Shown here piece by piece: positions 31,452 to 33,650 of a stretch of 56,027 nucleotides of DNA (the first letter of the stretch is position 1; each line of letters starts with the position of its first letter). The translations under genes and the position numbers were made by a program. The notes under the pieces are model-generated. The model searched no databases. It saw only the letters and a program-made list of their open reading frames with translations, and was not told the origin of the DNA. The stretch is from a virus: the IMG/VR virus record IMGVR_UViG_3300025154_001007, positions 1 to 56,027 of that record; one strand, written 5' to 3'.

Positions 31452-33650
31452 TTAAAGCCTACCTATGGGCGGGTAAAGTTCTCTGATTTTGCCCATATCT
31501 CCCTTGTATGCCACGATGATTTTTTGCTCTCTCTTCGGAAATTTTCGATAGTTAAGTGTAACCTTTGCATGAGATAAGCGGGTAAACTCGCACTCAAGAT
31601 AAACAATCTTGTTGTAGATATGTAACCCCTCGCCCTTGATGAAAAGCTCGTGCTCTGCTTCGCAACCGTAATAAGCCCCGTTTTTGTCTCTTGAGTCGCC
31701 TGTCATGACAACGAAGAAGCAGTTTTCATTAAGGGCGCTGATAGCTTTTCTGTACCCCGTAAAAAGCGTATCCCTGAACTGCTCGTATGTAGGTAGAGAA
31801 TTTATTTCACCCTCTGGCGGGTTCCCGTCGTAATCAACGTACTTTTCAACCCGATAGTAGGGCGGGCATGTAAATATTAAATCAAAGTTTCCATCTGGAG
31901 TGTACCGTGAGCTATCACTTCTAACCCAGGTAGCTTTTCCAGACAATCCATCGCACAGTGCATTGTTTGCATCGCATTGGTTTTGTCGTATCTCGCTTGC
32001 GATGTATTCATAACCATAACTCGCAGTTATGAAACCGAACTGAACGCCACCACCGAAAGGGTTGTAAACCCGCTTACCATTGGTTGGCATGAAAAACCTA
32101 AGAACAACTTCACAGGCTACCGGGTCTAAAACAGAAGCGTTAGCGTTGAAAGATTTGCCTTTTTTGTGCTTAACTTCTCCGTCTTCGATAACTTGTTTTG
32201 CAAGGACCACGTTTGACATTCCATTGGTGCCTTGCCAGCAGCCACCTCTTGAGGCGCACTTAGGGTTTTTAATATTGTGTCTTTCTCCCGCTGCCTCTAT
32301 CTTTTCGTTCCATTCTCGCTTCATTTTAAGCCAGTCTGAGCGAGTTGTTGTCCAGGCGTTGGTCATAGTGGCATGGGCAAGGCGCTTCATCCTAATTTGC
32401 TCCTGGGTGCCATAAACCATGTATTCAAATCCGCTAAGGGTGAGGTATGTGAAAAACCCCAAAGCCTTATAAACTGACGGACATTCAAGATCGTGTTTGG
32501 TACTGACGGTCATTATCATGGGGTAGCCAAAGGTGTTTTGCTTTATGATCTCCTTAACCATATTACCATATATAGCCTTGTCTTTCTTGTCCAAACTCAT
32601 GGCCGATTGAAGCAGGCAAAACTCATTAGCCTCATGGTTCAATTGATAAGTAAAGAATCCAGAAAAAACGCCATCTATTTTCAAAATAATAGCTGAATGT
32701 ATTTGCATATTCTTTCTTGCGGCCCGGTACGCCACACCGTCAAGAATAGCCAACTCAGCAACGTCTTTTTCATACCCTGACCCCATGACTGAATCGACTT
32801 GAACGAATTCTATTTTTTGTTCAAACACACTGAGTTGTTGAGGCATTTTTCTTAATCTCCCGTTTTGTTTTATTGCGTATCCCCACGGTACCCCGCACTG
32901 GTCTGGACAGTGCTTACACTCCCCCAGGAAAACATTATCGCTATGGATTGAAACAATCTGATTTCCAATTATGTTATCAACTGTTTTTGTTATCCCGATA
33001 TGGCCGTTTGTAAATAATGGCCCGTTAAGCCGTGGCCGTAAGGGGTTGTCTATTATTTTGAACGGCAAACTTAACAGGTAGCTTTGAAAATTGGCGCATT
33101 GCTTTGCGTATTCAGTGGTTAAAAAATTACACGTAACTATCCTTAGGACGCTTTTAATTCCCACCTTTTTAATTCTATCGGACTGCTCAAGCCGTTCTTC
33201 TATTTCTTCTTCGGTGTCAAGCGGGCTTACTGATGTGTTTATAACTGCATTGACTTTTTTAAGTCTTTCGGCCTGCCCATCTGACATTTTAAACCAGTGC
33301 TTGGTTACTATAACCGGAACCTTTAGGGTGTCCTCTAATTGCTCGCAAACCGTTACAGTGTGCTCCCAATCGTGCGATGGATCTCCGCTTACGCCTACCC
33401 TGTACCACGACAATTTGTGGCCCTTAACGGTCTTAAAAACATCTCCAAACGTGTCCTTGCCTATTTTCCGCGTAACGCTTTTTGAGAAGTCAAACCCACG
33501 CGCTTTTGCTATCTTGAAAGCGTAGCACTCTCCATAACAGCCACCGTTGGGATACCTTGAAACGCCGCAAGCACACCCCTTAACGGTATCGACGTCAAGG
33601 ACGCCCTTTAGGTTTTCTGATGCTGTCAAAATTGGTAGGTATTCAGGCAT
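31452..33650 (-). CDS. Radical-SAM-like / GNAT (Mom-like) / DNA methyltransferase fusion
   Basis: A 732-residue three-part protein. Residues 1-265 resemble a radical SAM TIM barrel with variant cysteine spacing (C26/C28, C38, C42 in GGCYGECYAF; a second cluster C245, C248, C252), related in layout to DUF5131-type proteins. Residues about 285-425 look like a GNAT fold (IHSAIILKIDGVFSGFFTY; CPSVYKALGFF), the fold of phage Mu Mom. Residues about 465-732 are a DNA methyltransferase: NPFGGG (540-545, SAM site) and TCPPYY (604-609, catalytic). Together these suggest a DNA base hypermodification enzyme, possibly for restriction evasion. Chemistry and specificity are inferred. Its gene directly follows 33651-33833 behind a strong promoter. 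Confidence 0.82.
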   Translation of the reverse strand: MPEYLPILTASENLKGVLDVDTVKGCACGVSRYPNGGCYGECYAFKIAKARGFDFSKSVTRKIGKDTFGDVFKTVKGHKLSWYRVGVSGDPSHDWEHTVTVCEQLEDTLKVPVIVTKHWFKMSDGQAERLKKVNAVINTSVSPLDTEEEIEERLEQSDRIKKVGIKSVLRIVTCNFLTTEYAKQCANFQSYLLSLPFKIIDNPLRPRLNGPLFTNGHIGITKTVDNIIGNQIVSIHSDNVFLGECKHCPDQCGVPWGYAIKQNGRLRKMPQQLSVFEQKIEFVQVDSVMGSGYEKDVAELAILDGVAYRAARKNMQIHSAIILKIDGVFSGFFTYQLNHEANEFCLLQSAMSLDKKDKAIYGNMVKEIIKQNTFGYPMIMTVSTKHDLECPSVYKALGFFTYLTLSGFEYMVYGTQEQIRMKRLAHATMTNAWTTTRSDWLKMKREWNEKIEAAGERHNIKNPKCASRGGCWQGTNGMSNVVLAKQVIEDGEVKHKKGKSFNANASVLDPVACEVVLRFFMPTNGKRVYNPFGGGVQFGFITASYGYEYIASEIRQNQCDANNALCDGLSGKATWVRSDSSRYTPDGNFDLIFTCPPYYRVEKYVDYDGNPPEGEINSLPTYEQFRDTLFTGYRKAISALNENCFFVVMTGDSRDKNGAYYGCEAEHELFIKGEGLHIYNKIVYLECEFTRLSHAKVTLNYRKFPKREQKIIVAYKGDMGKIRELYPPIGRL

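Follow-up and report, generated by a model that had tools for sequence, protein, structure and literature searches.

A viral protein joining radical-SAM, GNAT-like and DNA methyltransferase domains as a candidate DNA hypermodification enzyme

What could a virus use a protein for that joins a radical-SAM (rSAM), a GNAT-like and a DNA methyltransferase (MTase) domain in one chain? A preliminary description of the window (the 56-kb virus record analysed here as a whole) had assigned such a fusion to one ORF and read it as a self-contained enzyme of DNA hypermodification. The exact coordinates of the ORF, its minus-strand orientation and its ATG start were confirmed; it is the single ORF of the named region, and all three domains (an rSAM barrel, a GNAT-like middle part and an MTase) are recognizable in the AlphaFold model of the 732-codon product (Table 1). 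Twenty-two full-length proteins could be aligned end to end, the relatives being 53–73% identical to the 732-aa protein, and a comparison of raw codon-position differences with four relatives revealed, in every domain, 2–8 times more differences at third than at second codon positions. Since the protein aligns over its full length and shows this codon-position pattern, we conclude that it is functional and conserved and not a chance ORF.

Relatives are encoded at 150 places in the viral contigs scanned, and those fetched mostly have the order rSAM-GNAT-MTase or encode these three parts in neighbouring genes. No full-length relative was found among the cultured phages or plasmids searched. The literature searched holds no description of the rSAM-GNAT-MTase architecture, a prior mention in a 2013 survey of complex DNA modifications (gkt573) being possible. 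Searches of Pfam, NCBIfam and PDB sequences returned no convincing direct match to the N-terminal or the middle domain; two PDB-sequence matches were rejected as resting on short repeated helical stretches.

Table 1. Features of the fused protein and their positions in the window
Feature	Residues	Coordinates	Strand	Basis
Fused protein, rSAM - GNAT-like - DNA methyltransferase, 732 aa		31452..33650	(-)	ATG start
Divergent radical-SAM domain, partial beta/alpha barrel	1-262	32865..33650	(-)	AF2, Foldseek, hhalign
C26-x11-C38-x3-C42, presumed [4Fe-4S]/SAM cluster ligands		33525..33575	(-)	invariance in 54 sequences; secondary structure
C245-x2-C248-x3-C252, second invariant Cys group, end of rSAM domain		32895..32918	(-)	invariance in 54 sequences
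Low-confidence linker	263-280	32811..32864	(-)	pLDDT drop at ~261-275; gene split point of relatives
GNAT-fold domain, acetyl-CoA loop non-canonical	280-430	32361..32813	(-)	BFVD matches, L022 paralogue
RAARKNMQIH, signature of this GNAT group	309-318	32697..32726	(-)	invariant except residue 317, alignments A1 and A4
Amino-methyltransferase domain, phage ParB-MTase clade	436-732	31455..32345	(-)	PHROG matches, alignment
NPFGGG, SAM-binding motif I	530-535	32046..32063	(-)	invariant
CPPYY, catalytic motif IV of amino-methyltransferases	595-599	31854..31868	(-)	CPPY common to aligned ParB-MTase cousins

The C-terminal domain (METHYLTRANSFERASE) matches PHROG 12517 (3.7e-34) and PHROG 498 (3.9e-32) and aligns with phage ParB-MTases (Listeria phage B054 gp77, Enterococcus phage phiFL3A gp36 and Pseudomonas phage ZRG1; PHROG 498/12517), with which it shares motif I, CPPY, present in every cousin aligned, and the preceding tryptophan-containing segment. 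The two motifs on which the earlier assignment had relied are both present, motif I lying ahead of motif IV, and there is no room between them for a target-recognition domain. Its sequence places the domain among the amino-methyltransferases of the phage ParB-MTase clade. The ParB-MTases carry an N-terminal ParB_N domain; this domain is absent from the fused protein, where rSAM and GNAT stand in its place.

The middle domain had been described as both GNAT-like and Mom-like, and only the former held. It adopts a GNAT fold in the AlphaFold model, and a fold search with the full model retrieved viral GNAT proteins from BFVD (E ~6e-5, target TM 0.6–0.7); no family model matches the domain directly. 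At locus L022, a tandem second GNAT protein (L022:5254-5871), cut by the contig end, is encoded right after the GNAT-MTase gene. It is 33% identical to residues 280–451 of the 732-aa protein, finds its best match in EctA (diaminobutyrate acetyltransferase, 3.8e-9) and matches four Pfam acetyltransferase models, including Acetyltransf_1, below cut-off; no second copy of a tandem paralogue of this type was found. Since the paralogue bridges to GNAT families, the middle domain is a GNAT by descent. The acetyl-CoA loop (motif A, R/QxxGxG/A) is intact in the paralogue, which keeps KWKGNGLA, and is missing from the middle domain (SLDKKDKAIYGNM). Thus, model and sequence support a GNAT by fold and descent that has lost its own acetyl-CoA loop and may, because of this loss, be non-catalytic. 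In the codon-position comparison, the domain is conserved at least as well as the MTase domain. Membership of the Mom family was rejected: when the profile of the domain was set against 13 Mom proteins, the hhalign score (15.2) stayed under the highest score of the shuffled controls (18.1), and the HY, ELxR and D motifs of Mom are absent. Mom of phage Mu resembles the fused protein in its GNAT fold and in presumed DNA base modification, but it has no profile similarity to the middle domain, and only the fused protein joins an rSAM and an MTase domain.

The AF2 model of the N-terminal domain (rSAM-A; pLDDT 94.5, pTM 0.92) retrieved exclusively radical SAM enzymes at Foldseek PDB ranks 1–15, among them EpeE, biotin synthase BioB, HydE and TokK, with modest E values (8e-4 to 2e-2) and probabilities of 0.99–1.00. 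No rSAM Pfam model matches rSAM-A. Profile comparison by hhalign with a canonical rSAM family from relatives (rSAM-B, see below) yielded a score of 35.3 over 131 columns (shuffle maximum 20.3), and the rSAM-A model matches 11 rSAM-B proteins. The cysteines listed previously (26, 28, 38, 42, 245, 248 and 252) are all present; C28 is not conserved, and the other six occur without exception in 54 N-domains, fused or separate. In the predicted model, C26 comes immediately after the first strand (residues 23–25), a placement like that in the radical SAM superfamily, and the three conserved cysteines that follow this strand lie in a predicted partial rSAM barrel, in agreement with the barrel-like region proposed before. 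Their spacing is CX11CX3C instead of the canonical CX3CX2C. The second group, C245/C248/C252, may form an auxiliary cluster or a zinc site. Taken together, the fold search, the profile match and the replacement of the domain by rSAM-B in relatives support the assignment, already made in the preliminary description, of a divergent radical-SAM enzyme.

A comparison with DUF5131 (PF07505, phage Gp37/Gp68) had also been suggested. Members of this family have a GC...GC..CYA three-cysteine motif and strand motifs similar to those of the N-domain, and hhalign gave 32.0 (maximum of 40 shuffles, 19.6) in a match that covers the three-cysteine motif only, which weakly supports a distant kinship. Membership did not hold up: the spacing in DUF5131 is CX6CX2C, PF07505 does not match the 732-aa protein and it matches only 1 of 68 relatives, at E 0.001.

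Do the three parts work together? Many relatives have a GNAT-MTase gene of ~463 aa and a separate rSAM gene of ~270 aa, usually the next gene downstream; most of these split genes overlap by 4 or 1 bases. The best 80 of the 150 places were fetched. Out of 78 loci, 27 are fused, 36 are split with rSAM-A, 12 are split with rSAM-B and 3 are without a visible rSAM. An rSAM is fused or adjacent in 75 of these 78 loci, and the remaining three abut a contig end: the contig of L022 ends one gene past GNAT-MTase, L087 is labelled as a contig-end locus, and at L043 the contig opens with the GNAT-MTase gene, so that an upstream rSAM is possible. When a GNAT-MTase alone served as query, 71 of the 73 newly cut loci had an rSAM; many of the 73 belong to contigs already in the first set, and the two exceptions lie on the contigs of L022 and L043. 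Conversely, loci retrieved with rSAM-A contained GNAT-MTase, fused or separate, in 72 of 79 cases. The idea that GNAT-MTase also lives without an rSAM was rejected, as all 12 loci that lack rSAM-A carry rSAM-B. Fusion and fission, 1- or 4-base overlaps and near-obligate rSAM pairing argue for rSAM, GNAT and MTase being one functional unit, which bears out the earlier view of a self-contained set of three parts.

One relative, L003, has an rSAM-A frame (G001:C1:17502-18305) with three in-frame stops that looks decayed beside an intact GNAT-MTase, and the rSAM may on that account be dispensable.

The rSAM-B proteins that occupy the rSAM-A slot in 12 relatives have the canonical CX3CX2C spacing and score above the Pfam Radical_SAM cut-off (PF04055 2.4e-10). 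They match a PHROG annotated 'DNA repair photolyase' as well as PA0069 (4e-23), Rv2578c and spore photoproduct lyase (E values reaching 3e-7), the matches to these three families falling far short of the curated cut-offs. PA0069, Rv2578c and spore photoproduct lyase are thus linked to the N-domain through rSAM-B, which is itself related to it; the N-domain differs from such enzymes in its non-canonical cysteine spacing and its second, C-terminal cysteine group. On the GNAT-MTase tree, the label 'fused' requires 7 changes, at least 5 of them forced by well-supported branches, and the label 'rSAM-B' requires 10, at least 4 of them so forced. Among 65 rSAM-B loci that lack a complete GNAT-MTase, a ParB-domain gene is present in 39 (directly downstream in 24) and a C5-cytosine MTase in 9. 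The small ParB-domain proteins that recurrently adjoin rSAM-B in viral contigs (L378-L454) apparently form a separate rSAM-ParB cassette. In a gut phage contig (MT835521.1; L143:2309-3831), rSAM-B directly follows a Dcm-like, C5-methyltransferase-like gene.

The neighbours of the 732-aa ORF encode replication initiation, DnaB, Erf, VRR nuclease and DUF1367 proteins, and relatives likewise sit among phage replication and recombination genes (primase-helicase, RecT, SSB). Genome-bin contigs with the gene were binned with Desulfobacterales, Smithella, Spirochaetes and Massilibacteroides, though bins may hold stray viral contigs. These groups are largely anaerobic, which would fit oxygen-sensitive rSAM chemistry.

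Because its parts are fused, or kept as neighbours in relatives, the protein probably installs an unusual chemical group on phage DNA. The best reading is DNA hypermodification, backed by the ParB-clade MTase, by the pairing and exchange of rSAMs, by rSAM-B genes found with ParB and C5-MTase genes, and by the replication-region context. We lean slightly towards a self-contained phage enzyme that hypermodifies DNA bases, and give the same narrow preference to a modification made within the DNA polymer that goes beyond simple methylation. The C-terminal MTase would flip a base out of phage DNA, adding a SAM-derived carbon group to the exocyclic amine of that base. The rSAM domain (replaced in some relatives by a stand-alone rSAM of the spore-photoproduct-lyase kind) would activate the alkylated base by a 5'-deoxyadenosyl radical, and the GNAT-like domain would acylate or otherwise process the activated group, completing or positioning it. 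The modified base would shield phage DNA against host nucleases. DNA as the substrate, the order of the steps and all of the chemistry are what we infer; the order MTase, rSAM, GNAT is the least certain part and is itself rather doubtful. That one polypeptide alkylates a DNA base, activates it by rSAM chemistry and has it finished by a GNAT-fold domain, which would make a new class of hypermodification and yield a base modification not seen so far, is a serious candidate to which we give somewhat less than even weight. The non-canonical spacing of rSAM-A, the lost GNAT loop, the broken rSAM of L003 and the lack of a cultured phage with this architecture count against hypermodification, and the target of the rSAM could be protein or RNA instead of DNA.

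The thymidine hypermodification of phages such as ViI and M6 also involves a radical-SAM enzyme acting on bases already in DNA. Those pathways start from hydroxymethyluracil and kinases rather than from an MTase, and are encoded by separate genes. In the carboxymethylcytosine system CmoA/CmoX/CmoY, a phage enzyme of DNA-MTase fold and accessory enzymes produce a hypermodified base, ParB domains being common; CmoA and CmoX generate carboxy-SAM and pass its group on to DNA (PMC12783734). CmoX is a C5-cytosine MTase with SPPC, whereas the fused protein has the CPPYY motif of amino-MTases, and the places of CmoA and the ligase used by that system are taken by rSAM and GNAT.

Could the MTase be an ordinary one? 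It might make N6-methyladenine or N4-methylcytosine, with the rSAM and GNAT-like parts acting separately, for instance on host protein or RNA, and fused only for co-delivery. Phages do carry polyvalent fusion proteins (PMC5512222), which offer a precedent; the residues of MTase motifs I and IV are normal and the GNAT lacks its cofactor loop, as such an arrangement would allow. We nevertheless consider it unlikely, given that the rSAM pairing is near-obligate in fused and split forms alike, that one rSAM is exchanged for another beside the same GNAT-MTase, and that rSAM-B occurs elsewhere with ParB and C5-MTase genes.

The main alternative within the hypermodification reading overlaps our best explanation and changes its first step only: the MTase-fold domain would transfer another SAM-derived group (for example aminopropyl or aminocarboxypropyl) or use an rSAM-aided unusual SAM, and the GNAT would acylate the new amine. 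In the sister group of ZRG1-like ParB-MTases, a SAM decarboxylase is encoded in 54 of 82 loci (L088, OQ504961.1; L089, JQ867099.1; L145-L224) and lies within 300 bases in 53 of them, suggesting that this clade transfers a non-methyl group and hinting at aminopropyl transfer to DNA. Pseudomonas phage ZRG1 also encodes an Nmad5-family gene. In Mycobacterium phage Vincenzo (L136), the ParB-MTase gene overlaps a gene annotated as carboxylate deaminase, possibly another accessory enzyme for a SAM-derived group. The EctA match of the L022 paralogue and the carboxy-SAM precedent of CmoA/CmoX (PMC12783734) point the same way. However, no SAM decarboxylase was found in 30 virus contigs of the rSAM-GNAT-MTase group, and in the sister loci the enzyme may serve polyamine synthesis, so that we regard this variant as rather improbable. 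Finally, an rSAM that is a spore-photoproduct-lyase-like DNA-repair enzyme coupled to a DNA MTase, reversing a lesion and adding no group, would agree with the PA0069, spore photoproduct lyase and 'DNA repair photolyase' matches of rSAM-B, but is very improbable, since the lyase matches fall so far below curated cut-offs and there is no reason for a repair enzyme to be locked to GNAT-MTase.

To our knowledge, few radical SAM enzymes work on bases that are already part of DNA. Where an rSAM is fused to a DNA methyltransferase, the fusion itself is a direct pointer to the substrate, and since relatives have repeatedly swapped one rSAM for another next to the same GNAT-MTase, the hypermodification hypothesis can be tested with one gene or two. 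Seen alongside the SAM decarboxylases of the sister clade, this suggests that phage 'DNA methyltransferases' of a large and so far unstudied group install non-methyl groups.
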